NCBI GenBank assembly: GCA_945861465.1
Contig: CAMAVB010000037.1
Location: 1 to 43,463 of the forward strand
Source: Candidatus Kuenenia stuttgartensis
GTDB taxonomy: Bacteria; Planctomycetota; Planctomycetia; Planctomycetales; Planctomycetaceae
Direction of reading: 5' to 3'
Length of the DNA: 43,463 nt
Positions within the stretch are counted from its first letter, which is position 1. Each line of letters opens with the position of its first letter. The position numbers and the translations under genes were made by a program. Positions 18,340-43,463 of this stretch are shown one piece after another. Under the pieces are notes generated by a model, which was given only the letters and a program-made list of their open reading frames with translations, ran no database searches and had not been told where the DNA came from.

Positions 18340-18410
18340 ACTAACAATTGCTTCCGAAAGCTGGGTCGAAGTCTCGATCAAGTTCTGGCTTCGTCAATTG
18401 AGTTTTGAGA

Positions 18411-18528: not shown

Positions 18529-18608
18529 AATGTCTGGCATCGCCGGATTCATGCTTGTCTTGTGGGGGATTCAGCAGTCGAATGCGATGGGAAACGTTAT
18601 GGTTTAGC

Positions 18609-20063: not shown

Positions 20064-20101
20064 ACCGGGTCTTCGCAAATTCTGAGAGCCAGAAGTGTCG
20101 C

Positions 20102-23373: not shown

Positions 23374-23569
23374 GGACCGTTCGAGAAATAATTGACCGCA
23401 TCCTCGTGTTTTCACACGGTTTCTCGAAGTCCCTTCTCCCCCTGGGAAGGGGGAGAAGGTGGCCGGAGGCCGGATGAGGGGGTTATCCGCTGGATCTGAC
23501 ACTATCAAATACTTAACGGCGTTGGGTGAGGGGTATAAAAAGAGACAGTTATTTCTCGAGCGGTCCTAA
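23371..23569 (+). repeat. F3 element, copy 1
   Basis: 199 bp with TAA on both sides. The left end reads GGACCGTTCGAGAAATAATTG. The right end (reverse complement) GGACCGCTCGAGAAATAACT is intermediate between F3 and F1. The interior contains a GGGAAGGGGGAGAAGG foldback and AACGGCGTT. The left TAA is the stop codon of the permease. Confidence 0.85.
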
Positions 23570-23593
23570 GCCGGACCGTTGAGCTGAGTTGGC

Positions 23594-25405: not shown

Positions 25406-25615
25406 TACCAGAGTGGGGCCAATTCAATTCCAACCAAACAGAGTAAGGACCGGCGCAGAAATAACTGTCGTCTTCCGGATGTGGGGCACGTTTTTAACGT
25501 GCCCGGCACGATGGAATCGTGCCCCACTTATTTCTGTCTCAGTCCTAACAACCTCCACGCATTGTGGGATGGACTTCCTGGAACTCGCTACGACGCTGGA
25601 GATATCTTTCCTGTT
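25406..25615 (+). pseudogene. S1/P1-nuclease-like remnant interrupted by F1
   Basis: Before F1 copy 2 the frame reads YQSGANSIPTKQS; after it the frame reads NNLHALWDGLPG and then TRYDAGDI. Removing the element and one of its two flanking TAA triplets joins these into one frame. The G-A-N-S-I...N-L-H-x-L-W-D order matches the S1/P1 nuclease family, where the N-L-H-x-x-W-D aspartate and histidine bind zinc. A TAG stops the frame just upstream, and the family match fades after about 25600, so it is a short decayed piece. Confidence 0.5.
25444..25548 (+). repeat. F1 foldback element, copy 2
   Basis: 105 bp bounded by TAA on both sides. It has the same ends and twin stem-loop core as copy 1, with a different loop centre (CACGTTTTTAACGTG). 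It sits inside the S1/P1-nuclease-like remnant. Confidence 0.92.
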
Positions 25616-26290: not shown

Positions 26291-26349
26291 GAACGTCAGC
26301 AAAGGTTGCAGACGCTCTTCGGCAGTTGTTCGAAAGCGGAATACGCAAG

Positions 26350-28173: not shown

Positions 28174-29411
28174 TGTCCGCGCGAAGTCTGTTCACATCCC
28201 GTAGACTGCGGTTTGCTGTCTGCATTTTTTCTGTTGCGGCGATTGCGGTCGTAGCGACGATCAGTCTCTGGTGGCGTCCCGGATCGTCAGAATTTCCCCC
28301 GGAAATGTTTCCTGAGGGCTTGTCGGAGGCGTTGCAGGAAGACATTGCTCTTGCTCGCCAGAGAATTGCGAGAGCTCCGAGTGCCGGATCGTGGGGTGCT
28401 CTCGGGGAATTGTGCATGGCTCACGAACTTCTGCCGCAGGCTGAATGGTGTTTTCGGAAGGCGTCGTCTCTTGCACCGGACGATCCCAGGTGGATTTATC
28501 TGCTGGGTGTGATGGCTGAGGAAGTTGACCTGGTTCAGGCGGTTGCCTCGTATGACCAGGTGCTCAGTCTGGATCGTTCCGTGGCGGCAGTGCATTTTCG
28601 TCGCGGAAGAGCATTGGCCCGTGTCGGGCGATTCGAGGATGCCGAGCAAGCTCTGGTGACTGCCGCGAACATGTCGGAGCAACATCCCCTGGTTCTGAAA
28701 GCGATGGCTCAGCTGAGAATCATGCAAGGTGATGGCGATGCCGCACGTGTTTTGATCGAGCAGGCAGTCAATGACGGTCGAGCGGGCCTCGATGTCGTCG
28801 AAGAAGCAAAACGTCTACTGGCCCGCCAGCCTCAGCAAAATGCGCCGCCGACAATGCCACCGTCCGAAGCAGACTCAGCAAGACCACAGATGACTCAAAT
28901 GCTTCCGGAACCATGGCTGGACGGAGTCGCGCGCCGTTTGCCGCGAAACGGTGAAGTGGCAGCTCAGGCAGATTCACTTGCGTCGCAACAACACTACAAA
29001 GCCGCTCTGGAGATGTACGAGCGGCTGATCCGAATCGAAGATCGCAACTCGCGCGCCCACAACTTCCATGCGATGGTGCTGATGAACACGGGAAATGTTC
29101 AGCAGGCTTTGGCAGAAATCCAGAAAGTCTGCGAGGAATTTCCCCAGGATGCACTGGCGTTCAGCAGTCGAGGAGCCATTGAGGCTCAGATGGGGAACTT
29201 TTCTGCCGCCATCGAGTCACTCCAGGAAGCCGTGCGGCTCAAGCCGGATTTTGCCGATGCTCACAGAGCGTTGCTCATGATTTATCAACTTCAAAAGATG
29301 ACAGATCAGGCCGACGCGCAGTTCAGGATACTGCTTGCGATTGTGCCGGCCGACCGGGAATTGCAGGCACAATATGCAGCGTTTCAACGTGATCGCGGTC
29401 GTTCAAATTGA
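28173..29411 (+). CDS. Membrane-anchored TPR protein
   Basis: 412 residues starting at the ATG overlapping the previous stop. One N-terminal helix (~10-33, RFAVCIFSVAAIAVVATISL) should place the rest outside the cytoplasm. TPR motifs lie at ~60-210 (WCFRKASSLAPDDPRWIYLLG; VHFRRGRALARVGRFEDAEQAL) and again at ~270-405 (YKAALEMYERLIRIEDRNSRAHN; SAAIESLQEAVRLKPDFADAH), separated by a Pro/Gln-rich linker. TPRs bind partner proteins. The partner is probably the upstream FG-GAP protein, because the gene at 33123 fuses the same two modules in one chain. Confidence 0.88.
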   Translation: MSARSLFTSRRLRFAVCIFSVAAIAVVATISLWWRPGSSEFPPEMFPEGLSEALQEDIALARQRIARAPSAGSWGALGELCMAHELLPQAEWCFRKASSLAPDDPRWIYLLGVMAEEVDLVQAVASYDQVLSLDRSVAAVHFRRGRALARVGRFEDAEQALVTAANMSEQHPLVLKAMAQLRIMQGDGDAARVLIEQAVNDGRAGLDVVEEAKRLLARQPQQNAPPTMPPSEADSARPQMTQMLPEPWLDGVARRLPRNGEVAAQADSLASQQHYKAALEMYERLIRIEDRNSRAHNFHAMVLMNTGNVQQALAEIQKVCEEFPQDALAFSSRGAIEAQMGNFSAAIESLQEAVRLKPDFADAHRALLMIYQLQKMTDQADAQFRILLAIVPADRELQAQYAAFQRDRGRSN

Positions 29412-29524
29412 GACGGTTTCCGTCGCTCCATTTCTGCTATCAGCCGGTACGCATTAGCTACGGTTACTTTTCGAAACATGTTGCAGATGAGTCAAGTTTT
29501 GGGTGCGGCGGGGAACGATCGGAT

Positions 29525-29653
29525 GTAGGATGGACATTCATGTCCGTCGCATGACCATGAAACACGGTCGAAGCGAAAGTTATTGTGACTTTGCAGCCGT
29601 TCGATAGTGCGACGGTGCTTGGCCAATGCCTCGGACATGAATGTCCAAGATAC
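29525..29653. repeat. 129-bp foldback repeat
   Basis: Inverted ~22-bp arms containing TGGACATTCATGTCCG, with unrelated middle sequence. The arm centre resembles the GGACATCCTTGTCC core of F4, and an AATAACTTTCG (minus) word recurs, but the F4 ends are absent. Confidence 0.6.
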
Positions 29654-29879
29654 AGGAATCGCAGCTCTGGACTGCGCTTCTCGAACTCGGCCCGTCATCG
29701 TTTCCAGCCACACCGGATTTGGCCATTATGCGCTAAACCTTCGCGGCAGGCCGCCGCGACTGCGATTCGACACGATGTCGGACCGCGCAACGGCGATTTA
29801 CAATCCATTGGTCTGAGGCGAGTGGCGAAGGCCGCGATGACTCGCTGGAATCTTACCCTGTTTTATGGGCGTACCCTGC
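29654..29879. other. Intergenic between repeats
   Basis: No gene, RNA or clear repeat was recognised; the open frames present are short and without domain resemblance. Confidence 0.3.
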
Positions 29880-29938
29880 GCGCATCATTGTTGCTCATGT
29901 CTCCGACGCGAGTCATCCCGACACGGAGTGACGGGCAA
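29880..29938 (+). repeat. 59-bp direct repeat, right copy
   Basis: Same orientation and ~90% identity with 26232-26290, about 3.65 kb away, downstream of the TPR gene. Confidence 0.75.
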
Positions 29939-29965
29939 CTATGGGTTGCGGGCGAAGCCCGCGTT

Positions 29966-30051
29966 AAGTGGGGCACAATTCCATCGTGCCGAGCACGTTG
30001 AAAACGTGCTCCACGTCCGGAAGACGACAGTTATTTCTGCGCTGGTTCTTA
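29966..30051 (-). repeat. F1 foldback element, copy 3 (truncated)
   Basis: 86 bp in reverse orientation. It keeps the twin stem-loop core and the GGACCGGCGC-type end (here GAACCAGCGC) but lacks the outer ~20 bp at its other end. Confidence 0.85.
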
Positions 30052-30250
30052 GCGTCCGGTCTATTCAAAATCACGTGGAAAACCGGATCCTGGCGCACTG
30101 CGGCTGATACAAGTCGATTCCTCGCAGGATTCTTCCTCGTGGAACAGTTATGATCAATGCATTGATTCGGCTAGAATGCCTGTTATTATCCAAAAGAGGT
30201 GGAATTGCTGCCTTTGATGTTGTTTCAAATTTAGTTCCGGAGAATCTCCC

Positions 30251-30436
30251 ATGAAGAATTTTTGCTGTCTTTTGACGTTCGCTCTGATGATTGGCTGCGG
30301 AGCGTCGGATCAGGCTCCTGTCACGCCCGAAGTGCAAGCTGAACTGAATACCCAGATGGATAGCGACATGAAGGAGATGACGGGCAATCTGAACAAGATG
30401 CCGGGGTCACCGGGAGCAGAAGCAGAAGCCAAATAA
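30251..30436 (+). CDS. Small predicted lipoprotein
   Basis: 61 residues: MKNFCCLLTFALMIGCG, then a short acidic, Met-rich and Glu-rich tail (...LNTQMDSDMKEMTGNLNK). The lipobox-like LMIGC at residues 12-16 suggests cleavage and lipidation at Cys16. GGAGAAT lies at a good distance upstream of the ATG. Planctomycetes encode many such small lipoproteins of unknown function. Monocistronic. Confidence 0.65.
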   Translation: MKNFCCLLTFALMIGCGASDQAPVTPEVQAELNTQMDSDMKEMTGNLNKMPGSPGAEAEAK

Positions 30437-30515
30437 TAATGTCAAGCTCTCCTCTGCAGATCGACTGAAATTGGCAACGTGGGCGATTTCAGTTGACTGG
30501 CATTATGTTGTCATC

Positions 30516-30645
30516 TAAGCACCAGTGCAGAAGTTTTTTCGTTTAACGGCGAGCCGTAGGCGTAGGCGGAAGCACGCTGGATTCGCCTACGCCTACGGCT
30601 CGCCGTTAAACGATTTGTGCCAACTTACTTATGCACCAGTGCTTA
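30516..30645 (+). repeat. F2 foldback element, copy B
   Basis: 130 bp from TAA to TTA, nearly identical to copy A at 8542. Its right TTA is shared with the left TTA of F1 copy 4. Confidence 0.92.
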
Positions 30646-30747
30646 GGACTGAGACAGAAATAAGTGGGGCACGATTCCATCGTGCCGGGCACGTTGCAAA
30701 CGTGCCCCACGTCCGAAAGACGACAGTTATTTCTCCGCCGGTCCTTC
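30643..30747 (-). repeat. F1 foldback element, copy 4
   Basis: Reverse orientation; the left triplet TTA is shared with F2 copy B and the right triplet is TTC. Loop variant CACGTTTGCAACGTG. Confidence 0.9.
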
Positions 30748-30754
30748 CTTCGCT

Positions 30755-30787
30755 CGGCCAGGACTGAGGGACGTGTTGTTGAGTGGG
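30755..30787 (+). repeat. 33-bp direct repeat
   Basis: CGGCCAGGACTGAGGGACGT and the following 13 bp recur at 31488-31520 with about three differences. Confidence 0.55.
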
Positions 30788-30859
30788 CGCAGGGCGTTGC
30801 TGCGGGTTGTGCATTCGGTCAGCACCGCCGGCTGGCGCTTTGTCAAGACTTGATATTGA

Positions 30860-30938
30860 TGTAGGCCGGACCAAGCGCAGCGCAGTTCCGGGAATTGGCC
30901 GGCCTGCCGGAGCGGCGCTGCGCTTGGTCCGGCCTACA
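30860..30938. repeat. 79-bp foldback repeat
   Basis: Perfect ~24-bp inverted arms beginning TGTAGGCCGGACCAAGCGCA, with a GC-rich loop. A TCCGGCCTAC fragment recurs near 31243. Confidence 0.85.
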
Positions 30939-31741
30939 GTTTCAACCCAAATTCGCTGGTTTGACGGGGCATTACGCTGTGTTGTGAAACCCGTACCGGG
31001 TTCAATCACAGGATTTCCTGCATCAGGATCTTTCACGACTGAATCGAAAAATGGCTGACTCCTGAACAGAAATGTAGGGAACGACAAGCTCTGATCGGCA
31101 TTGGCAGTCAGCTGCGGTCGCTACCATTCGCCGCCGCGTGTGCCGGAACAGCGCAAACCCGAGTTTTCCGTCGTGATACCTTTGCGGCAGGACCTGTGTT
31201 CGACCAGTGGTCGCCGTCCGGGGTTTTGTCGGGTTTGCTCGGTCCGGCCTACTGTTTTCTTTGCGATCTCTGCGTTCTGTTGCGGCAATTCAAGTGTCTC
31301 GGACGCGGGAGAGTGAAGAAGCGGAATCGCAGTTTATGGCAAGAAGATTACGTGGACGAAAATTAAGCCGCTCCAATTCTGAGTGAACGAGATTCCAGAC
31401 TGCTGGGTCGCATCCCTGAACCAATCCCCGGGCAATGCCTTGGCGGGTTGCGTTCCTGCGTCAACGCTGGTTGAATTATACTCCGGCCGGCCAAGACTGA
31501 GGGACGTGTTATTGAGTGAGCCATAAAAACCACTAAATCAACAGACCGCTATACGGCACTCGGTTGAGGACGGCACATTCGTTCCACCGCGTGGGCAGCG
31601 CCCCGCGCTTCGTATTTCAAATCTCAAATTTCAAATCTCAAATTGAGCAATCGCGGCCCGCTGGGCACGCGGTTAAACGAGCCAATGCCAATTGCGTGCA
31701 GTATAGCTGCCCTGTCAAACCACTTCGTTTATCGTTGAACC
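30939..31741. other. Intergenic, about 800 bp without a recognised gene
   Basis: It contains the second copy of the 33-bp repeat (31488-31520), a short tandem tract (TTTCAAATCTCAAA twice near 31616-31645) and a relic of the 79-bp foldback. No coding region or RNA gene was recognised. Confidence 0.4.
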
Positions 31742-31772
31742 AAAAAAGAAAGCCCGGAATAATCCGGGCTTT
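31742..31772 (-). terminator. Rho-independent terminator of the DUF1559 gene
   Basis: Read on the minus strand: a 10-bp stem AAAGCCCGGA/TCCGGGCTTT with a 4-base loop, followed by a T-rich run (TCTTTTTTG). It lies ~27 bp after the stop. Confidence 0.85.
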
Positions 31773-31798
31773 CAAGGCTTCCTCAATTGGAAACTCAA

Positions 31799-32884
31799 TC
31801 AGAAATTGTTGATTGTTTCACCGCCAGTAAAGGTATTCAGAGCGCCCCAAACTCCTGACCCACTTTCCCAACCGGTGACGTTCTCACCTGGATAGTCGAT
31901 GTTATCGCTGAGGAATCTAACCGAGCCGTCAGCGAGCAGAGTCTGAGCCCCGCCAGGGTGCCTTGAACTTGCACCTGGCCAGTTATTGTTAATGCCAAAA
32001 CAGTGGAGATACGCCGGATGCATGGCATATGGAGCCGCAAAAGAATTCCAGAAAGAACCAGAACCAGAACCGTCGGCGGCCCAAATATTGTGTGCCCCGT
32101 TCGGTCCTGTGTTTTGCGCTACGTCGCTATTGTTGCCAGTGGACACCAGCAACGATCGGAATACTGCATTACCTGCACCGCCCTTCCGTGGGACTCCACC
32201 ACCGTTGTGCCGATGTCCCGGAACTCCGGGATTTGGCTGGAAGCCCGAAGTCGAGCATTCCGTGACCATGATGGTGTTCGACGTACCGTCCACAATCGCC
32301 TGAATTGAACAGTGAGTATTCAAATTGAAAACACCCGAAATCCCATGATTCGGACGTTTCCACCAGTCGTACCCTTCGGCTCCGGCGTAGTTGGTCCAAG
32401 CGATGCCATGCCGGTTCATGCCGCCACCGAAGCCTGGATCGGAGGGACATTCAAAACCTTTCAATCGTATTGATTGAAGTGCCTTGGTCGAATTTCCGGA
32501 CACAATTTGCTGGTTCCAGGATGGAATATTGAAGTTGATAGCCTGGTAGAGCGGCCCCTGTTCCACGTAGGGCAGGATCATAGCGACCCATGTGAAATTG
32601 CGGCGGTCGGTAGCAGCAACGATATTCCCGCTATCAGGACCGAGGTCCATTTCCCTGCCCCAATAATCACACATCGGAAACATTTGATACACATCGTGAT
32701 AGTTATGCAGAGCGAGTCCGATCTGCTTCATGTTATTCTTGCACTGCGTACGCCGTGCAGCCTCGCGTGCCTGCTGCACCGCTGGCAGCAACAACGCAAT
32801 CAAGATCGCAATAATGGCAATCACAACCAACAACTCAATCAGCGTGAAACCAAAACGTAGTCTTTGTCTTTTACCATTTACCAT
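31799..32884 (-). CDS. DUF1559 protein with prepilin-type N-terminus and H-X9-DG motif
   Basis: 361 residues from the ATG at 32884, chosen because GGGGGAG lies 8 bases upstream. The N-terminus [17 protein letters not shown] is a class III (type IV pilin-like) prepilin signal for a leader peptidase (PilD-type), which cuts after the glycine and methylates the Phe. AREAARR and [17 protein letters not shown] are typical of DUF1559. The C-terminal [12 protein letters not shown] is the H-X9-DG motif. DUF1559 proteins are massively expanded in planctomycetes, with no proven function; surface or pseudopilin assembly is inferred. Monocistronic, with its own terminator, divergent from the TPR/FG-GAP fusion gene. 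Confidence 0.95.
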
Positions 32885-33122
32885 GAGCAAACTCCCCCGA
32901 AAAATTCAAAAAACAAAAAGGAACAAGATCTGCGTGCAGCCAGATAGCGAACAGCCAAGGGAGCCGCACGCGATCAGGATGTACATTGATGCAGTTTATC
33001 GAGTCTTCGTCGGCAGTCAATTCCCAGATTTCCAAGTTCTTTCCGAATTTTGAAACAAATTCTTCACCACTTCCACCAATGATGCGGTAGTAAGCAGTCA
33101 CGCTTGGAAACCCGTTTGATTC

Positions 33123-36068
33123 ATGAGTGATTTTGACGTTCGGTCGGCTATGAAACTCTGGAAAAAATCTGCAATTGTCATAGCTTCAGTCTCGTTGGCC
33201 GTTGTTTTTTTTGCTCTCGTGTTCTTGTCTCGTTCGGACCCTGATCGTCTTTTGCGTGAAACAATTCGTGCAGTCAAATCGCAAAATACAGATGAAACAA
33301 TTTCCGATCTGGACGCTATCTTAGACCGTCATCCTGATCATGTGAACACACTTATCGAGCGTGTTGAGTACGCACGTTCGGATGCGGAGTCACTCAATTT
33401 CTTGAGACGAATACAGCAGGGGCCGTCGGAGAAAATCGCAGCGGCTCGGCTGCTTGAGGGCAATCTTCTGCTGAAGCAGAATCGCTGCCAAGAGGCTATT
33501 GCTGCATTTCGTGAAGCCGTGAGGCTCAAGCCATCATTTGATGCGGCACGATACCGCTTGATCCCATTGCTGGCTTTGCTGCGGAAGCCCGCCGCCGTGC
33601 GTGAGCAGTTGGAGGCAATTCGAGAGACTCGACGGCTGACACTTTCTGAAATGGTGCTCTGGGTCACGGCCGACGCACGTCTGACACCGTTTTCTGAGGC
33701 AGTTGGCTACCTTGAAGCGTTTCAGCGTACAGATCCTGAGGATATCGACAGCCTCAGGGCTCACTGCATCTATCTCTCGGAGGAGTCGCAGCAGGATGAG
33801 GCCATTCGGCACCTGAAAGCGGCTTTGCAGAAGTCACCAAACAACCCTGACCTTGTCGCTCTCCTGGGACATTTTCTCCTCGACGGTGGGCAGACGACTG
33901 AGGCCGCTCAAGTCCTCAGTTCCCTGCAGCCTTCGGCAGACTCAAGCGTTGAGCAATGGCATGCACTTGGTCTGCTGGCATTCACTCTGAGGGATCTGGA
34001 GTCTGCCAGAATCGCTTTGGAATTTGCCGCGTTAAGTACTCCATTTGAACGTTCCCGAACCTACCTCTATTATCGCGTATTGAATGCGTTGGGAAATCAC
34101 GAGCAGACGCCGGTGTGGCAAAAGCATTCAGACACACTCAACACACTTTATACCGAAGTGGAGACAGTGGAAGTCACCATTGTCCGCAAGATCGTCGATC
34201 CACGGCCAGTCGTGCGTGTTGCCAGGTTATTGCTGGAACTGAATCGTCCAGTTGAAGCGACAGAGTGGGTTGAGATGGCACAGTCGATGAACGGAGCGGC
34301 GGCGACAAACGGCACCGCAGCGCTGGTAAGCGAACTTTCGCAGCGGTGTGCTGAGCGATTGGCATCTTATCAGGAACCACCGCTGATCGCGCCCGTTTCG
34401 GTATGGAACTCGATTGAGCGTTTGAACCCTTCAGCCGTAACGGCACCGCCACCGGACGAAGGAGCCGCCGCGTCCTCCGGAATCCGGTTGAGGGACAAGG
34501 CTGGTGAAATGGGTCTTGATCACCAGTATGAAAATGGTCACACGGGCCTGAAGTATCTGATTGAAGCGATGGGGGGCGGAGTGAGCGTTGTTGATTTTGA
34601 CCTCGACGGCTGGCCGGATCTTTATTGCCCACAAGGGGGAGTTCTCGGGGAAGGGCCCGAACGTCCTCCCGTCTCGGATCAGCTTTTCCGCAACGAGATG
34701 GGTGCCAGGTTTTCCAATGTCTCTGAGGCCGCACGCATTCGCGAGGTTGGTTATAGCCAGGGAGTTGCGGCTGGAGACATCAACGGAGATGGATTCACTG
34801 ACATTGTTGTGGCAAATGTTGGCCGGAATACACTGTTCCTCAACTGCGGTGACGGGACTTTTGAAGACATCACGAGCGGCTCAGGGCTGGAGATCTCATC
34901 GTCTATGAGTTCCAGCGTGGCACTGGCAGATCTGGACGGTGACACCGATCTGGATGTGTACGTCGTTAACTACGTGGATGGATTAAAGATCTGCCGCGAT
35001 GACAAGCAGCAGATTGCAACCTGCAATCCTGCGTCGCACGGAGCGGCTGCCGATGAGCTTTATGAGAATCTCGGCGATGGTCAATTCCTTGACGTCAGTG
35101 CCGCTTTCAACAGCGGTCACACTTCCGGAAAAGGACTTGGCATCATGATCGCCCGGCTGGACGGTGATCTGCACCCCGACATCTTTATTTCCAACGACAC
35201 AACGCCGAATTTCCTGTTCATCAATCGCTCAAATACGCAAGGCATGCAGTTTGAAGAGCTGGGATTTCCGATGGGCGTCGCTGTCAATGGTACGGGACAG
35301 GTCCACGCCGGCATGGGAATCGCCTGTGCGGATCTGGATCATGATCTGCGGCCCGACCTGTATGTGACAAATTTTCATCTCGAAGCCAACACCCTGTTCC
35401 TGCAACGGGATCCTGGCTTGTTTCAGGATTCAACTGCAGCTGCCGGCCTGCGCGAACCCACTTTGCCTCGTCTGGGGTTTGGTGCACAGGCCGTTGATCT
35501 GGATCTTGACGGATGGATGGAACTGTTTGTCACGAACGGACACATTGATGATCAGACGGATCGTAACGTCGAATGGAAAATGGCTCCGCAATTGTTTCGC
35601 ACTGTCGATGGGCTCGATTGGAGCGATGTTTCCTCACAAGGCGGTCCGTTCATGCACGAGAAAGCACTTGGCCGTGGCGTATCCGTACTGGATGCCAATC
35701 GTGATGGCTGTCAGGACCTGGCCATAGGCTTTCAGGATCGACCATTGGCCCTGCTGATCAACGAAACGCCAAGCCCCGGCAATTCTGTGGTCCTCTGTTT
35801 GCTTGGTGTTTCCTGCAATCGCAGCGCAACCAATACCGTGGTTTACTGGGAAATTGGCGGCCAGCGCATGATGACAGAGCTTCGCGGCGGCGACGGTTAC
35901 TACTGCTGCAATGAACGCAGACTGACTCTGGGGCTTGGCACGTCGGAACTGGCAGAGCTCATTGAGATTCACTGGCCCGACGGCACAATCGACCAGTTAC
36001 GACAGGTCATCGGAAACAAAAGTTACCTGGCTCGTCAGGGCATGCCGCTGGTTGAAGATTCGCTCTGA
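33123..36068 (+). CDS. TPR - FG-GAP - ASPIC/UnbV fusion protein
   Basis: 981 residues. One N-terminal helix (~17-36) should anchor it with the rest outside the cytoplasm. TPR motifs fill ~35-430 (LLLKQNRCQEAIAAFREAVRL; AIRHLKAALQKSPNNPDLVAL). An FG-GAP propeller spans ~460-860 with D-x-D-x-D-G loops (DFDLDGWPDLY, DINGDGFTDIV, DLDGDTDLDVY, DLDLDGWMELF), and ASPIC/UnbV fills the last ~100 residues. It joins in one chain the two modules encoded as separate coupled genes at 26350-29411. The ATG at 33123 is preferred; 33150 is an alternative just before the helix. It ends 3 bp before an inverted repeat. Confidence 0.9.
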   Translation: MSDFDVRSAMKLWKKSAIVIASVSLAVVFFALVFLSRSDPDRLLRETIRAVKSQNTDETISDLDAILDRHPDHVNTLIERVEYARSDAESLNFLRRIQQGPSEKIAAARLLEGNLLLKQNRCQEAIAAFREAVRLKPSFDAARYRLIPLLALLRKPAAVREQLEAIRETRRLTLSEMVLWVTADARLTPFSEAVGYLEAFQRTDPEDIDSLRAHCIYLSEESQQDEAIRHLKAALQKSPNNPDLVALLGHFLLDGGQTTEAAQVLSSLQPSADSSVEQWHALGLLAFTLRDLESARIALEFAALSTPFERSRTYLYYRVLNALGNHEQTPVWQKHSDTLNTLYTEVETVEVTIVRKIVDPRPVVRVARLLLELNRPVEATEWVEMAQSMNGAAATNGTAALVSELSQRCAERLASYQEPPLIAPVSVWNSIERLNPSAVTAPPPDEGAAASSGIRLRDKAGEMGLDHQYENGHTGLKYLIEAMGGGVSVVDFDLDGWPDLYCPQGGVLGEGPERPPVSDQLFRNEMGARFSNVSEAARIREVGYSQGVAAGDINGDGFTDIVVANVGRNTLFLNCGDGTFEDITSGSGLEISSSMSSSVALADLDGDTDLDVYVVNYVDGLKICRDDKQQIATCNPASHGAAADELYENLGDGQFLDVSAAFNSGHTSGKGLGIMIARLDGDLHPDIFISNDTTPNFLFINRSNTQGMQFEELGFPMGVAVNGTGQVHAGMGIACADLDHDLRPDLYVTNFHLEANTLFLQRDPGLFQDSTAAAGLREPTLPRLGFGAQAVDLDLDGWMELFVTNGHIDDQTDRNVEWKMAPQLFRTVDGLDWSDVSSQGGPFMHEKALGRGVSVLDANRDGCQDLAIGFQDRPLALLINETPSPGNSVVLCLLGVSCNRSATNTVVYWEIGGQRMMTELRGGDGYYCCNERRLTLGLGTSELAELIEIHWPDGTIDQLRQVIGNKSYLARQGMPLVEDSL

Positions 36069-36071
36069 CAG

Positions 36072-36196
36072 GCGAGTGCTCTGTCAATCGTGTATTGATG
36101 TGTGCCACTGGCTTTGCCAGTGCTTCCTGGAAATGCAGAGCACTGGCAGAGCCAGTGGCACACAACCCATCAATCCATTGCTGACAGAGCACTCGC
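36072..36196. repeat. F5 foldback repeat
   Basis: 125 bp with outer arms GCGAGTGCTCTGTCA and inner ~25-bp arms starting GTGTGCCACTGGCTTTGCCA. Its right edge abuts the TTA of F1 copy 5. Its ends lack the F1-F4 motif. It could serve as a transcription stop for the upstream gene. Confidence 0.85.
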
Positions 36197-36301
36197 TTAG
36201 GACCGGCGCAGAAATAACTGTCGTCTTTTGGACGTGGGGCACGTTTATAACGTGCCCGGCACGATGGAATCGTGCCCCACTTATTTCTGTCTCAGTCCTT
36301 A
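36197..36301 (+). repeat. F1 foldback element, copy 5
   Basis: 105 bp bounded by TTA on both sides. The right TTA (36299-36301) is, on the minus strand, the TAA stop codon of the Amt-like gene. Loop variant CACGTTTATAACGTG. Confidence 0.92.
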
Positions 36302-37600
36302 TACGGTCTCGTGACGCGGAAGAAACAGTCTAAACAGCAGCCACGTGACCAGCACGGACCACATGACTGTAGCTGCGATCGCCAATCCCTGCAGCGTGAG
36401 TTGATTTGTGTTGCCTTGAATCGCACCGAGAATCTCACGCTCGTCCCATCTCTGACCTCCCACGCCCGACGAGGCAAACATTCCCGCTCCCAGCAGACCC
36501 ATCAGACTGCCGATACCAAGAGTTGAAAACAGTTGTCGCTGCGGATCATGGGGATTCCTCAGCGAGGTCGCATGGAAAACAATGTTGGAGAGCACGACGG
36601 AAGAGCAACCAAGGATGATCGCCGACTGCGGAAGCATGTATCCCGCCCCCGGTGCAATCGCCGCCAGTCCTGCGAGAGTTCCAGCTGCGGTGCTGTCGGT
36701 GAACGGCCGCTTCCACAGAAACGAATTGCAGAAACTCCAGATCAGGATCCCGCAGCCAGTGCCAACCAGCATATTCACCAGTGCGATCATCGCACGACCA
36801 TCAGCGTGAAAAGAGTAACCACTGACGTGGAGCGACATGCCCAGCCACATCAGAAGTACTCCTGTCGCCGAATGCCCGTCCGAGCCGGAACACGCCTGGG
36901 ATTCGTCGTACTTCGGCACGCCAAATAATGCAGAACAACCTGATGCGAGCAGAACCAGTCCCAGACTAAAGTCTATAGCACCGTGCTCCTCCAGCCACCC
37001 ATCACCGGAAATCGCATGCACGACAGGGGCGAAGACCAGCGTACTCCACAGCACTGTGACCAGCCCCAGCCGCAATCCCGTAAGCCGCCGCGACCAAAGT
37101 AGTGTCAACGGCAGCACGACGATCATAAAACTGCACCATCGAAAACAAAATTCCAGCAGGAGTGGCAGATGATGATGCGGACGCTTCGTGGGAAACATTG
37201 GCAGGTCTGGCCCTACGACCGGCATCAGACCGTCCATCGCCAGGTAGTTCAGGTTTCCAAGAATCCCGCCTCGACCATATAAGTGGGACTCGTCCTTTTT
37301 CGCATCTTCAACGGCCATCATCTCCTGCAGCGAAGGCATCGCCTGAGGATTTGGGTCAACGTCTGGTACCGTGCCAATCGAAGGAGCGAATGAAAGGGAG
37401 AAAATCCAAAGTGCCCAGGCGACTGTCAGCATCGCGACATGCAGCGGCAGTGATTTCCAGAGTGACGGGTCTCCGCCTGTGGACGTGGGCGGAAAAAATA
37501 CCAGCACAAATCCAACAATGAACAGGATCAACGACAAAATTGACACTACGGCGATCCATCCGAGATCGCCCGATGAAAATACCGCGTTCCATAAAGTCAT
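36299..37600 (-). CDS. Divergent Amt/ammonium-transporter-like membrane protein lacking both pore histidines
   Basis: 433 residues with ~10-11 hydrophobic segments. Amt landmarks align: SGDLGWIAVVSILSLILFIV (helix 1), VVHAISGDGWLEEHGAIDFS (pore Asp210), SGYSFHADGRAMIALVN, LAAIAPGAGYMLPQSAIILG and LFSTLGIGSLMGLLGAGMFA. In AmtB the pore holds a twin-His pair 8 residues after the Asp and in V-H-G-V-G-G; here both aligned positions are Leu (218 and 361). Normal NH4+/NH3 conduction is therefore unlikely; sensing or another substrate is possible. The start ATG overlaps the stop of the upstream FG-GAP gene (ATGA). Its own TAA stop is the TTA triplet of F1 copy 5. The alignment is by eye, so the His loss needs a profile check. 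Confidence 0.75.
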   Translation of the reverse strand: MTLWNAVFSSGDLGWIAVVSILSLILFIVGFVLVFFPPTSTGGDPSLWKSLPLHVAMLTVAWALWIFSLSFAPSIGTVPDVDPNPQAMPSLQEMMAVEDAKKDESHLYGRGGILGNLNYLAMDGLMPVVGPDLPMFPTKRPHHHLPLLLEFCFRWCSFMIVVLPLTLLWSRRLTGLRLGLVTVLWSTLVFAPVVHAISGDGWLEEHGAIDFSLGLVLLASGCSALFGVPKYDESQACSGSDGHSATGVLLMWLGMSLHVSGYSFHADGRAMIALVNMLVGTGCGILIWSFCNSFLWKRPFTDSTAAGTLAGLAAIAPGAGYMLPQSAIILGCSSVVLSNIVFHATSLRNPHDPQRQLFSTLGIGSLMGLLGAGMFASSGVGGQRWDEREILGAIQGNTNQLTLQGLAIAATVMWSVLVTWLLFRLFLPRHETV

Positions 37601-39507
37601 TGATTTTCTCGCAGTCGCTTACCATGGCCCCGAACAATCTGTAAGTCCCGATCGACAGTGCCGCCAGCAAACTCTTCAACGCATTCTTCGACCGGACCAT
37701 CTGGCCAGCGCACAATAATCCTGTCGATCTGCGTCTGCGTGCCAACTCCAAAATGCACCCGCACATCGTGGCTGGCAAGAAAACTAGTACACGGCGTCAC
37801 GCTTGCCGTCCATCGATCAACACCGCATTCCACAGTCACACGGGCTCCAATCGCATCACGCTTGCGCTCCATGTCCAGCAGCCGCAGCCGAATCCAATGG
37901 CCGGATTTTGGAAACTCGTTCCGGTAAAATCTGGCTCGACTTCCGGAATTCGTGACGAGCAGGTCGATGTCACCATCTTCATCCGGGTCCCCGTACAGCA
38001 GACAGCGAGCTGAACCGACGGCGCGCGTAAAATCGCCACCCTGGTCCTGAGTCGCGTCGCGCAAGAGCCCGGTCCCTGTCGACAGCAGCAGCAGATTTCT
38101 GTCCGCGTAGTCGTTCCAGTAATCTGCGGAATCCTGCACGCTGTCGGAACGTACCTGAAAATTATCGTCGCCATGCGGAGGAAATCCCGAGTGGCACGGA
38201 ATCACGAGTCCATTGGCGAGTGGCAAATCCAGCCAGCCATCATGATCGAGATCGATCATCGCCGCACCCCAGCCTGTATGCCGTCGCGTCCAGAGATTGA
38301 GTCCGGAAAGCTGCGTCGCGTCGGTAAAAAAACCTTTTCCTGAGCTCTGAAACAGGATTGTGCTCTCCGTCGATAAAGTCGAGATCACAAAATCCTGCGA
38401 TTGGTTTCGATCGATATCACCGAATGCGATTCCCATGCTCCCAGAGGCCGAGCCAAATGCGTTGACAGCGACACCGAACGCGACAGCTTGCTCCAAAAAC
38501 GTCCCGTTACGTTGATTTACCCACAATCGATTGGGCTGACTGTCGTTGGCGATCAGAATGTCAGGCCAATCGTCATCCGTAAAGTCAGCTGTGACGACTG
38601 CAAATCCGTAACTGGTGACCTCTGACATTCCAGCCGAGGCGGTCACGTCGGCGAAATGCAACTGTGGTTCCGCCACACCATCCACAAGCTGCAGGCCATC
38701 GTTATGATAAAGACGATCGACCGTCGGAGAGAATTTATGCGGGCCACAGTAGCTGACGATTCCTTTGAGGAATCCGCAGGCCGTCTGATGATCGTATTTG
38801 TCATCATGCGTATAATTTGCGACGACAATGTCCAGAAGTCCGTCTCGATCGTAGTCGAAAAAGCTGACACCGGTCCCCCACTCGGTTTCTACGATGCCCG
38901 CGGCAACAGCAACATCCTGAAATTGAAACTTGCCTTCGTTCAGCAGCAGCCTGTCCTGCTTCACACAGGTGACGTACACATCCGTATCGCCGTCATTGTC
39001 CACATCCCCGACCGCACAGCCCATTCCAAAACCAAGGCCATCAAGTCCAGCCTGAGCAGAAACATCCTGCAATGCTCCATCTGCCATTCCGCGATACAGA
39101 GCCCAGCCGGTTCGTGTCCCTGGTGGAAAATCGCCCTTTGCCTGTGGAGATCGCTCGCCGTTGATCAGCAATAAATCGAGACGCCCGTCGTTGTCAAAAT
39201 CACTCCATGCCGCTCCCGATCCCACGGACTCGGGAACGTAATACGTTCCCACAGGCCCGACTGCGTGAGAATACGTCAGTCCGATTTCGTCCGTGGCATC
39301 GACGAGTGATCGCGAGTCGGCTTCGGGGAGCGGAGCGTCTTTCAGGCAATCGTATCCCGTTGATTTTTTCACTCCTGCGTGCTTCACAGGAGCGTTTGCA
39401 ATTTGAGTCTTCAGGTTGAGGGCCGACACGGAAAGCACCATGATCGCCACAAGCAAGACGCCGATGATTCGCCCCCAGGGCAGTGCCGCTTGTAATTTCT
39501 GAATCAT
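37597..39507 (-). CDS. CRTAC1-like FG-GAP / ASPIC-UnbV protein (first gene of the minus-strand Amt unit)
   Basis: 636 residues from the ATG at 39507, which places a helix (~11-31, GRIIGVLLVAIMVLSVSAL) at the N-terminus; longer in-frame starts lack such logic. FG-GAP loops include DFDNDGRLDLLLIN, DVDNDGDTDVYVT, DYDRDGLLDIVVANY and DLDHDGWLDLPLANG, and ASPIC/UnbV fills the last ~90 residues (GARVTVECGVDRWTASV...VHFGVG). A Cys pair (ACGFLKGIVSYCGP) is shared with its paralogue at 39997. Sequence similarity between these two is strong throughout (for example GDFPPGTR versus GNFPPGTR). Its stop overlaps the Amt-like gene start, indicating coupling; the propeller should be extracytoplasmic and might contact the Amt-like protein. 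Confidence 0.9.
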   Translation of the reverse strand: MIQKLQAALPWGRIIGVLLVAIMVLSVSALNLKTQIANAPVKHAGVKKSTGYDCLKDAPLPEADSRSLVDATDEIGLTYSHAVGPVGTYYVPESVGSGAAWSDFDNDGRLDLLLINGERSPQAKGDFPPGTRTGWALYRGMADGALQDVSAQAGLDGLGFGMGCAVGDVDNDGDTDVYVTCVKQDRLLLNEGKFQFQDVAVAAGIVETEWGTGVSFFDYDRDGLLDIVVANYTHDDKYDHQTACGFLKGIVSYCGPHKFSPTVDRLYHNDGLQLVDGVAEPQLHFADVTASAGMSEVTSYGFAVVTADFTDDDWPDILIANDSQPNRLWVNQRNGTFLEQAVAFGVAVNAFGSASGSMGIAFGDIDRNQSQDFVISTLSTESTILFQSSGKGFFTDATQLSGLNLWTRRHTGWGAAMIDLDHDGWLDLPLANGLVIPCHSGFPPHGDDNFQVRSDSVQDSADYWNDYADRNLLLLSTGTGLLRDATQDQGGDFTRAVGSARCLLYGDPDEDGDIDLLVTNSGSRARFYRNEFPKSGHWIRLRLLDMERKRDAIGARVTVECGVDRWTASVTPCTSFLASHDVRVHFGVGTQTQIDRIIVRWPDGPVEECVEEFAGGTVDRDLQIVRGHGKRLRENQ

Positions 39508-39699
39508 GTAATCACACGCTGGACATGAAAGCCGAGACGCCGCTCGACAACGAACAAAATTGCCGACATGCTTTAGAATTGTATCGAGCGAGAGAGAGAA
39601 CCGATAGCCAGGGCGGAACCGCTTTGCCTGTCGTGATGCAAATTGGCTCATATCCAGACACGGCGACGAATGGTGGTTTTGGCGTTTCGAGTTCGAGCT
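39508..39699. other. Start of the divergent promoter region of the two FG-GAP/Amt units
   Basis: The whole gap is 39508-39996. This part has no recognised gene or repeat and presumably holds the minus-strand promoter; the plus-strand promoter would lie between 39893 and 39996. Confidence 0.35.
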
Positions 39700-39892
39700 T
39701 CTGGAAATTCGCTGAGTCTACCGGATTCTATGTTCAGTAGTTCCTGGCGTCCTTTCGTTTAACGGCGAGCCGTAGGCGCAGGCGGACGAACTAAGGGCAG
39801 AATTCGCCTACGCCTGCGGCTCGCCGTTAAACGATTTCAACTCTAAAATCGCCCTGTGTTTCACATAGAATCCAGTAGGGTCTGGAAATTCG
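39700..39892. repeat. F2 copy C within a larger foldback flanked by 12-bp direct repeats
   Basis: The F2-type palindrome (GTTTAACGGCGAGCCGTAGG arms) spans 39757-39837. Outside it lie ~15-bp inverted arms CTACCGGATTCTATG (39718-39732) and CATAGAATCCAGTAG (39864-39878). Perfect 12-bp direct repeats TCTGGAAATTCG at 39700-39711 and 39881-39892 flank the whole. The typical F2 ends (GCACYRGTGC) are absent. Confidence 0.75.
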
Positions 39893-39996
39893 AAGGGACT
39901 ATTTGTCCGGCCTATATCCGGTTCTTCCGGCCAAATACTGACAAATGGTGAATCCGAGTTCGGCGTTCATTGACAGTATTGAATGCCACGGATGTA

Positions 39997-41952
39997 ATGC
40001 ACGAGAGATACGACAGTGTCAACTCTGTCAGCGACGTTCGCAGCAAGCGTCATGAATACGGTCAACATGCGGAGCGGAGCGTGATTCGGATTTCCCTGTT
40101 CGGACGCATCGCGATTGCATTCGTGTGTTTCGGATTGTTGACGATTCCGCAGATTCTCTGGCTCAGCAGCAGCAGCCAGTTCCTGTCCGAACGCGGTCAG
40201 GCATTCCAGAAGCCTTGTGACAACGTAACGGATGTTCCTGTGAGGTCACACGTCACACAGTCCTTTGTGGATATCACGGACAAGGTCGGACTGGATTTTC
40301 AGCATATCGCGGGGCCGTTGGGCAGCTACTACATGCCCGAGGTCAACGGTACCGGCGGCGCATTCTTTGACTATGATTCCGACGGCGATCTGGATATCTA
40401 TCTGATCAATGCCGGGCGTTCGCCAAAGGCCGCAGGTAATTTCCCCCCGGGGACACGAATCGAGAATCGGATGTTTCGCCAGGAAGCCGACGGACGTTTT
40501 ACAGATGTCACCGAGGAATCAGGGCTGGGTGACACAGGTTTTGGTTCGGGATGCGCAATCGGCGACATCGATAATGACGGTGATCTGGATGTCTATGTCA
40601 CGAACTACGGCCAGGATCGACTCTTTCAGAACAATGGAAACGGAATGTTTCGTGACATCACACTGGCAGTCGGCATCATCGAATCTGATCCTGGAACAGG
40701 AGCTGTCTTTTTTGACTACGACCGTGACGGCCGCCTGGATTTGTTTGTGACCAGTTACGTGTCCGACGCCGTCCACGGCCTTTCCGTGGCGTGCGAATTC
40801 GGAGAAGGCCGCGTTACCTACTGCGGCCCAATGATGTTTTCAGCGACCGCCGCCCGGCTATGGCATAATGAAGGAGTTCATACAGACGCCAGTGGCAATT
40901 CTTCTGTCGCCTTTGCAGACGTGACCATCAAAGCGGGGATGGCTGAGACTAAGGGTGCCGGGTTTACAGCGGTGTCGGCCGACTTTAATCGTGACGGATG
41001 GCCCGATATCTATGTTGCCAATGATTTGTATCCGAACCGTCTTTGGATCAATGGTGCCGACGGAACCTTCAGCGACCAGGGTCATGTGCGCGGGGTGGCA
41101 CTCAATGGAAAAGGCAAATCCGAAGCCAGCATGGGGATAGCCCTTGGTGACGTGAATGGAGACGCAACGTTCGAACTGCTGGTGACAAACCTCACCCACG
41201 AGGCAGATGCACTTTATCTGAATGCCGGAGACGGCTTGTTCGTTGACAGCACGCAGATGTCCGGACTTGGTGAGGTGACATTGCCTCACACTGGATGGGG
41301 AGCCGCATTTCTGGATCTGGATCAGGATCTTGATCTTGATCTGGCACTCGCGAATGGACTTGTAACCCCCTGCGAATGGATGTTTTCCACCCAACGACCG
41401 CGGCCAGTCGCATCCAGCGTGCTGGTTCCGAATCCGGCCACATTTTGGGCCACCTATGCGGATCGTAACCTCTTGCTGGTCAATGATGGGACCGGAATGT
41501 TTCACGACCACAGTGATTTTGGCGGCGACTTCACATCAGAGACCGGGAGCGCACGATCATTGATCTACGGGGACATTGATGAAGATGGTGATCCCGATCT
41601 GCTGGTGACTTACTGCGGCGGCCGAGCCAGACTTTTTCGCAATGATATTCCGAAACGCGGGCACTGGCTGAAGCTGCGTGCGCTGGATCCTCGGCTGCAT
41701 CGGGACGCCTATGGCGCGGAGATTACTGTCAGCGTCGGCGACCGGCGACTCATCAGGCTGGTGAATCCGGCGAGTGGTTACCTTGGGAGCAACGATCCCA
41801 GACCACATTTTGGACTTGGCGACTCAGTCGAATTCGATGCGATACACGTGCTCTGGCCGGATGGACTCTCCGAAGTATTTCCTGGCGGAAAAGGTGACCG
41901 AATGATCGTGTTGCGGCGTGGGGAAGGTCGCCCCAACGGACTCGATGAATGA
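39997..41952 (+). CDS. CRTAC1-like FG-GAP / ASPIC-UnbV protein (first gene of the plus-strand Amt unit)
   Basis: 651 residues from the ATG at 39997 (an in-frame TTG at 39970 is weaker). The N-terminal helix at ~32-54 (ISLFGRIAIAFVCFGLLTIP) anchors it. FG-GAP loops are DYDSDGDLDIYLIN, DIDNDGDLDVYVT, DYDRDGRLDLFVT, DFNRDGWPDIYVAN, DLDQDLDLDLALANG and DIDEDGDPDLLVT. ASPIC/UnbV occupies the end (GAEITVSVGDRRLIRLV...PHFGLG). The Cys pair (ACEFGEGRVTYCGP) corresponds to that of the paralogue at 37597. It is followed after 54 bp by a co-directional Amt gene, mirroring the divergent unit. Receptor, calcium-binding or adhesion roles are possible; none is proven. Confidence 0.9.
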   Translation: MHERYDSVNSVSDVRSKRHEYGQHAERSVIRISLFGRIAIAFVCFGLLTIPQILWLSSSSQFLSERGQAFQKPCDNVTDVPVRSHVTQSFVDITDKVGLDFQHIAGPLGSYYMPEVNGTGGAFFDYDSDGDLDIYLINAGRSPKAAGNFPPGTRIENRMFRQEADGRFTDVTEESGLGDTGFGSGCAIGDIDNDGDLDVYVTNYGQDRLFQNNGNGMFRDITLAVGIIESDPGTGAVFFDYDRDGRLDLFVTSYVSDAVHGLSVACEFGEGRVTYCGPMMFSATAARLWHNEGVHTDASGNSSVAFADVTIKAGMAETKGAGFTAVSADFNRDGWPDIYVANDLYPNRLWINGADGTFSDQGHVRGVALNGKGKSEASMGIALGDVNGDATFELLVTNLTHEADALYLNAGDGLFVDSTQMSGLGEVTLPHTGWGAAFLDLDQDLDLDLALANGLVTPCEWMFSTQRPRPVASSVLVPNPATFWATYADRNLLLVNDGTGMFHDHSDFGGDFTSETGSARSLIYGDIDEDGDPDLLVTYCGGRARLFRNDIPKRGHWLKLRALDPRLHRDAYGAEITVSVGDRRLIRLVNPASGYLGSNDPRPHFGLGDSVEFDAIHVLWPDGLSEVFPGGKGDRMIVLRRGEGRPNGLDE

Positions 41953-42006
41953 ACGCATTCGCTGTTTCGCTGACACAAGACTGGTTCAAGATTGAGATCG
42001 GAATTC

Positions 42007-43463
42007 ATGACAACCATGCAAATCAGGATGATCACTTTTCAACATTCACTCTGCCCACGGCGCATTGCCGGTGGTCTGGTGTGGCTTGCTGTGGTTGCGT
42101 TCTCTTCAGAGTTACTCGCGCAATCGCAGGTGTCTGAAGTACCACCGCCGATCCAGACAGACTATGTGGGCACCGGTGCATCGGACGAATGGGACTCCGG
42201 GCTGAAGCGATTCAACAGTTCGGAATTCGAATCCGGCAACATCGCCTGGATGATGGCAAGCGGGATTTCATGTTTATTTCTGCTCACTCCCGGGCTCCTG
42301 CTTTTTTATTGCGGATTGCTGAAGACGCAAGGTGTGGCAACGGTGATGATTCGATATCTCGGTGTGGTTGCAGTGCTGAGTATGGCGTGGGTGTTGTGGA
42401 TCTATTGTCTTGGGTTCGCTCGAAACTCAACTTCCTCCGACGTGCTGGAGAGCGAGAGAGTTACGGCGACCGGGGAAAAAAATCCCCTGAACCGAATCTT
42501 TGGAAGTTCCAGCCATCTCGGATTTGGAGGGCTGGATTCACAACTCAAAAACGACGGACCCACATACGCTCTTCGAAGGCCAGACGAAACGATACCGCAC
42601 CTGCTCTTTATGACGTGCCAGCTGATGTTTTTCACCAGCGTGCCCGTACCACTTCTGGTGTCGCTGCACGGTCGAATGACTTGGGCTGCGCTGGCAGCCG
42701 GTGCTGTCCTGTGGGGCACTTTCGTTTACGCTCCAACAGCGTATCTGGTCTGGGGCAGCGGATCACAGGGAACGGTGCTGGACTCCGCCGGAGCCTTGCC
42801 AGCCCACGTCAGCCTGGGCTTTTCCGCACTGGTTGCGGCCATGTTTATGAGTCGTGCGCCTCGGTGTGAAGTCGGAACCGAGTCTTCTCGCCGAACTGTC
42901 TTACTGGGTCTGGGTATCGCATTTTTCTGGAGCGGTTCATTAGTCTGGAATGCCAGCCGTTCAATGACGGTCGATGGGTACGCGATGAACGCTTTCGTTG
43001 TCACTCACTTTGCTGCCTGTGGCGGGTTGATTGGCTGGTGCGGAGCCGATTGGATGATCCGTGGCAAGTTGGGGCTCGTGTCGTTGTGTATCGGACCATT
43101 CGTGGGACTTGTTTCAATCGCATCCGGCAGTAGCTACGTAGCACCACAGTCTGCGATTATGATCGGCTTGCTGAGCAGTGCGGTTGCCTGTCTGGCATAT
43201 ACATCTGTCAGGAAACGCTTTCCCGGAAACTCGATGGCGATTGTGTTTGTATTGCATGCTGTGGGAGGTGTCATGGGGATCATGCTGACGGGTGTCTTTG
43301 CGACGGCCTCTGTCGCAGGCCTGGACCGCAGCGGCAACCCGATTGGCGGGCTGGTCGAGGGCAACCTCAGTCGCCCCCTCGACCAGGCTTTTGCTGCGTC
43401 TTTCGCTGCGGGCCTCGCGATACTCGGAACGCTCGCGATCGTGCTGATTTTCCGATTCATCGA
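42007..43463 (+). CDS. Ammonium transporter-like (Amt) protein, 3' truncated
   Basis: At least 485 residues; the frame runs off the window end. The N-terminus has a likely signal peptide (RRIAGGLVWLAVVAFSSELLAQ), as in E. coli AmtB. Helix 1 reads MMASGISCLFLLTPGLLLFYCGLL, an Amt hallmark. GTFVYAPTAYLVWGSGSQG leads to LDSAGALPAH, where Asp259 and His267 keep the 8-residue spacing of AmtB Asp160-His168; FVLHAVGGVMGIMLTGVFA supplies the second pore His (His417). Both key residues are therefore present, and NH4+/NH3 conduction is plausible. A ~45-residue insertion (~140-190) between helices is unusual. GGAAT lies a few bases upstream of the ATG. Probably an operon with the FG-GAP gene 54 bp upstream. 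No GlnK/PII is in view. Confidence 0.88.
   Translation, partial: MTTMQIRMITFQHSLCPRRIAGGLVWLAVVAFSSELLAQSQVSEVPPPIQTDYVGTGASDEWDSGLKRFNSSEFESGNIAWMMASGISCLFLLTPGLLLFYCGLLKTQGVATVMIRYLGVVAVLSMAWVLWIYCLGFARNSTSSDVLESERVTATGEKNPLNRIFGSSSHLGFGGLDSQLKNDGPTYALRRPDETIPHLLFMTCQLMFFTSVPVPLLVSLHGRMTWAALAAGAVLWGTFVYAPTAYLVWGSGSQGTVLDSAGALPAHVSLGFSALVAAMFMSRAPRCEVGTESSRRTVLLGLGIAFFWSGSLVWNASRSMTVDGYAMNAFVVTHFAACGGLIGWCGADWMIRGKLGLVSLCIGPFVGLVSIASGSSYVAPQSAIMIGLLSSAVACLAYTSVRKRFPGNSMAIVFVLHAVGGVMGIMLTGVFATASVAGLDRSGNPIGGLVEGNLSRPLDQAFAASFAAGLAILGTLAIVLIFRFI

Follow-up and report, generated by a model that had tools for sequence, protein, structure and literature searches.

Ammonium transporters of the Amt/Mep/Rh family, such as E. 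coli AmtB, A. fulgidus Amt-1 and fungal Mep2, and the FG-GAP/ASPIC propeller proteins related to CRTAC1 are encoded side by side in the 43,463-nucleotide stretch analysed here (the window), contig CAMAVB010000037.1 of Candidatus Kuenenia stuttgartensis (assembly GCA_945861465.1). The window is a whole contig of this assembly (genome G000: 8.2 Mb, 474 contigs) and carries two units in which a propeller gene precedes a gene for an Amt-like membrane protein, namely FGm/AmtM on the minus strand and FGp/AmtP on the plus strand. We consider it probable that AmtM is a dead channel, now reused in the inner membrane as a platform on which a periplasmic propeller complex is built. The loss of the channel's working parts and the pairing suggest that, in a planctomycete group, an old channel became the membrane platform of an undescribed protein complex.

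To our knowledge, the molecular role of ASPIC/CRTAC1 proteins is not clear; a mammalian relative exists. FGm shares the FG-GAP_3 and UnbV_ASPIC domains with CRTAC1 and the ASPIC-UnbV propellers and matches the fold of murine CRTAC1 (9etn). Unlike the murine protein, FGm is bacterial and has an N-terminal hydrophobic helix, a PCHSxFxxHGED insertion and an Amt-like partner. An ASPIC gene directly before the gene of a polytopic membrane protein presumably also occurs in the UnbL/UnbV/UnbU set of enediyne clusters; the membrane partner there, however, is weakly RnfD-like and not Amt-like. No openly licensed paper naming both UnbV and UnbU was found. Reminiscent of this set are genes for a DUF1702 protein, an ASPIC protein and a weakly RnfD-like protein (E 1.6e-4) that stand in a row on another contig of the same genome (C64; L183 6445-10543), and no DUF1702 match occurred among the window proteins scanned.

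AmtM resembles the Amt/Mep/Rh transporters in sequence family, predicted fold and alignable pore helices. In contrast to these, the AmtM-like proteins lack the twin-His pair, the Phe gate, the S1 serine and D313 (18 of 18) as well as the PII tail (all 17 complete proteins), and AmtM has an enlarged, conserved periplasmic loop 2-3 and an ASPIC neighbour. With the Amt sensors (Ks-Amt5; structures 6eu6 and 8qj3) it has in common an Amt fold that probably serves for something other than bulk uptake. However, AmtM has no fused kinase or cyclase (433 amino acids, a single Pfam domain) and its pore motifs are lost, while Ks-Amt5 keeps filter, gate and His pair according to the available part of PMC5764959. 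CRTAC1-family genes beside hydrazine-synthase-like genes were described in Planctomycetota in 2025 (PMC12758564, available part). Like the FG-Amt loci, these clusters keep a CRTAC1-type gene in a planctomycete gene cluster, which hints that CRTAC1-type propellers may belong to periplasmic complexes elsewhere too; the term 'ammonium transporter' is absent from the text of that paper. To the preliminary description of this DNA, the FG-GAP/Amt linkage was not known as a described system. We agree, as no ASPIC or FG-GAP protein paired with an Amt was described among the matches listed in the openly licensed literature (titles and beginnings of abstracts), and no openly licensed paper was found that brings together FG-GAP, ammonium transporter and Planctomycetes.

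Layout and distribution of the gene pair

The two units consist of the following genes:
AmtM, 36299-37600, minus strand: Amt-like polytopic membrane protein of 433 amino acids, assigned by Pfam, a residue table against E. coli AmtB and an AlphaFold2 (AF2) model
FGm, 37597-39651, minus strand: FG-GAP/ASPIC propeller with one N-terminal hydrophobic helix
FGp, 39970-41952, plus strand: FG-GAP/ASPIC propeller, paralogue of FGm, with one N-terminal hydrophobic helix
AmtP, 42007-43463, plus strand: second Amt-like protein, truncated by the contig end

As described previously, the minus-strand open reading frames are joined by an ATGA overlap between the end of FGm and the start of AmtM, and on the plus strand the AmtP ATG (42007) follows the FGp stop (41952) at a distance of 54 bp, AmtP then running off the contig. 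The real start of FGm may be an internal ATG near 39507, and a complete relative of AmtP is present in genome G011 (L045:13289-14917). FG-GAP_3 and UnbV_ASPIC in both propellers and Ammonium_transp in both membrane proteins scored above the curated Pfam cut-offs; AmtM reached 86 bits for PF00909 (cut-off 23.2) and did not reach the NCBI TIGR00836 cut-off (100 vs 343 bits). AmtM and AmtP are distant Amt homologues. Identity between them is 27% over 431 aligned positions, and between the two propellers FGm and FGp it is 49% over 578. Amt genes occur at four places of genome G000, two of them being ordinary Amts of contig C161; UnbV_ASPIC occurs at 21 places, including four on the window contig.

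Both units are part of a larger locus (26326-43463), which also includes genes for another ASPIC protein, for TPR and TPR-ASPIC proteins and for a pseudopilin-like protein of the DUF1559 type:
FG26, 26326-28173, plus strand: FG-GAP/ASPIC protein, of the type that forms the first gene of a four-gene operon in 10 of 18 genomes
TPR28, 28173-29411, plus strand: TPR protein with an N-terminal hydrophobic helix, overlapping FG26 by one base
DUF1559 (SBP_bac_10) protein, 31799-32890, minus strand: pilin-type N-terminal methylation motif
TPR-FG, 33123-36068, plus strand: TPR repeats and FG-GAP/ASPIC, with an N-terminal hydrophobic helix

When 79 related genomes were searched with AmtM, clear relatives appeared amid many ordinary Amts, and profiles separated the two. 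The AmtM family was set apart at 467-567 bits in 18 of the 170 genomes of the window's family; below it followed a protein of genome G395 (214 bits), AmtP (199-205 bits) and the ordinary Amts (196 bits or less). The 18 genomes belong to five genera, with 10 of them among the 18 compared genomes of the window's genus, and 152 of the 170 genomes, some of which are incomplete, were without an AmtM-like match. In a sample of 397 genomes of the class, 14 had scores of at least 267 bits, all from the window's family, and among 392 genomes of the phylum AmtM-like scores occurred only in G000 and in G116, a single-contig genome. At most four candidates per genome were scored in these two samples, so that misses are possible; neither sample supports a wide distribution of AmtM.

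In all 18 genomes, an FGm-like ASPIC gene is located directly upstream of the AmtM-like gene on the same strand. The preliminary description had proposed a search for the FG-GAP/Amt pairing elsewhere; its presence in 18 genomes of five genera rules out that the neighbourhood is unique to one genome. Taking the first possible start, the overlap is exactly four bases in 12 of the 18. The order FG26-TPR28-FGm-AmtM is uninterrupted in 10, and in G000, G361 and G188 FG26-TPR28 is nearby. The contigs of G004 and G016 end inside FGm, G338 has the pair on a 9 kb contig without FG26-TPR28, G011 has a more distant ASPIC/TPR pair, and no FG26-TPR28 was seen within the 30 kb taken around the pair in G283. 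A 19th pair, of the AmtP type, occurs in G395, split across two contig ends that share 52 bases. As a control, 17 labelled matches to ordinary planctomycete Amts were inspected (from 12 of 15 loci, five with two matches each; L059, L064 and L156 gave no Amt label), none of which had an ASPIC neighbour. Likewise, labelling revealed no ASPIC match in 69 other loci (48 Amt genes labelled; 22 loci without an Amt label, probably owing to the simple way in which reading frames were chosen). Since all 18 AmtM-like genes share neighbour and orientation, as opposed to 0 of 17 ordinary Amts, we concluded that the pairing exceeds chance.

The pair might nevertheless be a passively inherited neighbourhood without joint function. 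All carriers found belong to a single bacterial family, ASPIC genes are common (21 places in G000) and the genes of the locus have similar trees, which would all fit such an explanation. However, the linkage has persisted in 18 of 18 genomes, 12 with the four-base overlap, although identities have fallen to about 25% and the other locus genes have been rearranged; none of the 17 labelled ordinary Amts stands beside an ASPIC gene, and an insertion in the ASPIC protein, described below, tracks the type of partner. We therefore regard passive inheritance as very improbable.

Channel residues and conservation in AmtM

Residues were compared with, and numbered after, E. coli AmtB (L065). The twin-His motif, which is called highly conserved in a review (PMC10433425, available part), is not kept as a pair (H168/H318) in any of the 18 AmtM-like proteins, with the first His alone remaining in G240 and G338. 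F107 and F215 of the Phe gate, the S1 serine S219 and D313 were likewise each kept in 0 of 18; position 107 is occupied by S, T, I, V or L and position 215 by H, L, M, S or V. D160 is retained in all 18 and W148, another S1 residue, in 14, though not in the AmtM of the window. The PII (GlnK) tail GLDxxxHGExxY, which E. coli AmtB carries together with 7 of the 8 further ordinary Amts compared, is absent from all 17 AmtM-like proteins with a complete C-terminus; the protein of G338 is cut at a contig end and was left out of this count. AmtP is less altered, retaining H168, H318, F107 and W148 with the changes F215W, S219R and D313I, and its complete relative in G011 has no PII tail. This pattern of replacements indicates that the AmtM-like proteins are probably not working ammonium channels and that AmtM would no longer transport ammonium. 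Automatic annotation is likely to label such proteins as ammonium transporters.

The AF2 model of AmtM (mean predicted local distance difference test score, pLDDT, 70; predicted template modelling score, pTM, 0.78) matched AmtB, Amt-1 and Mep2 structures at Foldseek ranks 1-40 (1u77: TMq 0.74, TMt 0.83), followed by the Amt-sensor structures 6eu6 and 8qj3 at ranks 41-43. The Amt fold is thus predicted to be intact. To locate the conserved positions, membrane sides were assigned from the helices of this model and from the topology of AmtB. For the periplasmic side, the membrane and the cytoplasmic side, mean pairwise identity was 0.38, 0.29 and 0.10, respectively, among AmtM proteins, as compared to 0.38, 0.55 and 0.59 among ordinary Amts. 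These values were obtained from 14 of 18 AmtM and 16 of 18 ordinary rows after removal of four and two near-duplicates; the periplasmic value of the ordinary Amts covers the 79 of 125 columns that they share, and on these shared columns alone the AmtM value is still 0.38. The 40 positions with the highest conservation in AmtM comprise 21 on the periplasmic side, 2 at the N-terminus, 17 in membrane helices and none on the cytoplasmic side. By alignment, the most striking conserved part is periplasmic loop 2-3, which is enlarged to about 75 residues (about 72-146) and carries the pattern FGPSxGTxP...EMM...D...GRGGxxG. In AmtM, constraint thus appears to have moved from the pore and the cytoplasmic side to the putative periplasmic side. 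Such a pattern is to be expected of a protein that has given up both its pore and its cytoplasmic regulator and has acquired a partner in the periplasm.

The preliminary description had suggested a gated channel, a receptor or a nutrient sensor. Given the lost channel residues, we do not favour AmtM as a gated channel for ammonium or as a sensor of it; a receptor is conceivable. As in Amt sensors, the former S1 vestibule of AmtM, and also of AmtP, might still hold a small ligand, with the signal passed on to the propeller or across the membrane. Sensors with an Amt fold do exist (Ks-Amt5; PMC5764959, available part), the periplasmic side of AmtM is conserved, W148 and D160 are kept in 14 and 18 of the 18 AmtM-like proteins, and AmtP retains H168, H318 and F107. 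However, Ks-Amt5 retains all functional motifs and has a fused kinase, according to the available text, whereas AmtM retains few and that of the window lacks W148. Moreover, none of the 18 AmtM-like proteins has kept the S1 serine, for which AmtP has Arg, and the short C-terminal tail and the least conserved cytoplasmic side (0.10) leave no visible output module. We consider a receptor unlikely. Still less likely appears a working, altered channel that is gated by the propeller and passes, e.g., K+ or some other small solute. Replacement of both His turns AmtB and Mep2 into K+/NH4+ channels (PMC9040831, available part) and the predicted Amt fold is intact, but the pore positions 107 and 215 vary across the AmtM family. 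In addition, conservation is lower in the membrane segments than on the periplasmic side, which would not be expected for a selective pore.

Propellers, insertion and history of the two units

The best solved relative of the FGm AF2 model was murine CRTAC1 (9etn_A; TMq 0.61, TMt 0.75), and FGm is accordingly predicted to be a CRTAC1-like propeller. Calcium loop motifs of the Dx[DN]xDG type occur in FGm and FGp, including five DxDxDG loops in FGm. The FGm of the window carries the insertion PCHSGFPPHGDD. All 17 FGm rows and the G395 protein have a corresponding blade insertion, PC[HK]SxFxxHG[DE]D, as read off the aligned rows (a longer regular expression gave 15 of 17; the partial G016 FGm was not among the rows). 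At the same place, PCxQGD occurs in all four proteins of the YfhO branch described below and a degenerate form in both FGp rows, while the insertion was present in 0 of 14 FG26-type rows and absent from those TPR-FG rows that span this place.

In the FG tree, 18 FGm and 2 FGp formed one clade (support 100/100); the TPR-FG rows in this first tree were long-branched and of unsure placement. In a larger tree, from which the TPR-FG rows and four partial or off-type rows were excluded, the clade comprised 24 rows, namely 17 of FGm, 2 of FGp, the one from G395 and 4 proteins from genomes without an AmtM-like match. Three of these 4 adjoin a YfhO-like polytopic protein, and the contig of the fourth starts too close. 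The YfhO assignment is based on Pfam matches below the curated cut-off for the two proteins scanned (E 3e-6 and 2e-4) and on similar sequence for the third. In these three loci, the YfhO-like gene is located between a TPR-FG gene and a close FGp relative, replacing the Amt gene (L167, 9119-11590; L169, 5172-7712; L170, 9953-12490).

FGp lies outside the 18 FGm rows, and AmtP lies outside the 18 AmtM rows in a tree with ordinary Amts as the outgroup. The preliminary description had interpreted the arrangement as an inverted duplication around 39.75 kb; the tree positions instead point to an old paralogous split and rule out a recent local inverted duplication. By sequence comparison, the window's two units represent old branches standing side by side. 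The Amt tree separated 21 ordinary rows, some of them identical, from 21 FG-linked rows (100/100), of which AmtP and the G395 protein were nearest to the ordinary Amts. In the simplest history, an Amt would have been recruited once to the side of an ASPIC gene, the AmtP/FGp and AmtM/FGm types would have parted early, and the AmtM line would then have lost its channel residues step by step. The larger FG tree did not resolve how its four lineages branch; the YfhO branch would require a change of partner, in one direction or the other. Tree distances of FGm and AmtM were highly correlated (r 0.90, 18 genomes), with 0 of 2000 shuffles reaching as high a value.

Proposed propeller platform and neighbouring genes

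Under the favoured reading, AmtM descends from an ammonium transporter and would keep the Amt fold in the inner membrane without transporting ammonium. Its periplasmic face (N-terminus, enlarged loop 2-3 and loops 4-5 and 10-11) may serve as a docking platform. FGm, putatively translationally coupled to AmtM, would be a calcium-type, CRTAC1-like propeller that is held at the membrane through its N-terminal helix, faces the periplasm and binds AmtM via the PCHSxFxxHGED insertion. On this base FG26 and TPR28, and in many genomes also TPR-FG and the pseudopilin-like DUF1559 protein, may build an envelope complex, with AmtP/FGp as a probably less eroded version of the AmtM/FGm pair. This reading draws on the conserved gene order, the loss of channel residues, the conservation shift, the similar trees of the locus genes and the partner-specific insertion. 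Physical contact between FGm and AmtM we infer, as we do the membrane sides, the anchoring, the absence of transport, the stoichiometry and the purpose of the complex.

Several observations count against an AmtM platform. The FG-Amt system is dispensable, as 152 of the 170 family genomes show no AmtM-like match. Distances in the TPR28 and FG26 trees agree with those of AmtM equally well (r 0.92, 12 genomes, and r 0.90, 13 genomes, respectively); the locus was therefore inherited as a unit, and the correlation shows no private contact of FGm and AmtM. FGp, the partner of AmtP, is without the insertion PC[HK]SxFxxHG[DE]D. Most of loop 2-3 was modelled with pLDDT below 50, and the membrane sides of AmtM were taken from AmtB topology and the AF2 model. 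Finally, loss of the twin-His pair alone is no proof of a closed pore, since AmtB variants with a changed twin-His motif conduct K+ as well as NH4+ (PMC9040831, available part).

A more general proposal, to which we give somewhat less than an even chance, is that CRTAC1-type ASPIC propellers are periplasmic subunits docking on polytopic proteins of unrelated folds. One lineage would have swapped between Amt-like (20 of 24 rows) and YfhO-like partners (4 of 24, the gene being seen in 3), a more distant ASPIC protein would pair with an RnfD-like protein, and the Amt would here have decayed into a dead channel, the hub of an envelope complex that includes TPR and pseudopilin-like proteins. A fixed membrane partner for an ASPIC propeller is a testable interaction. 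The loss of channel hallmarks together with strong conservation of one face would, if true, represent a rare turn of a transporter family into a scaffold or receptor.

Among the other locus genes, TPR-FG homologues adjoin several other AmtM loci, and a DUF1559 homologue was present in 10 of the 18. As G000 has 59 DUF1559 matches, several of them beside other ASPIC genes, it is uncertain whether DUF1559 is a core part. ASPIC genes were repeatedly found within a few kb of DUF1559 pseudopilin-like genes (contigs C12, C26, C84, C216 and C7), which suggests a wider DUF1559/TPR-ASPIC module. A second FG26-TPR28 pair of G000 (C127; L180 2516-5754) is 62-63% identical to the window copy and has no Amt beside it. 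In G188 and G283, a SCO1/SenC-FG-GAP-ASPIC protein is encoded beside the FG-Amt pair (L148 1960-5327; L149 6045-9411). A link to cytochrome or copper chemistry was set aside, since a COX2-like gene scored in G188 (L148) only, its G283 counterpart being without a Pfam match.

The window also contains repeats and a biosynthetic cluster. A palindromic element resembling repetitive extragenic palindromes occurs at 39753-39837, 30539-30613 and 8622-8638, one copy being intergenic between the divergent units; its core 17-mer has 187 copies in the genome, as opposed to 0 for the reversed control. An interspersed repeat of about 100 bp is present in both orientations at 25442-25548, 29965-30051, 30643-30749 and 36199-36299 (89-96% alike). 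A polyketide synthase-like cluster (9701-25075) encodes a KS-AT-DH protein, an ER/KR-ACP-condensation-thioester reductase protein, a weak stand-alone condensation-like match, an LPG-synthase-like protein and ABC/MacB-type exporter genes.

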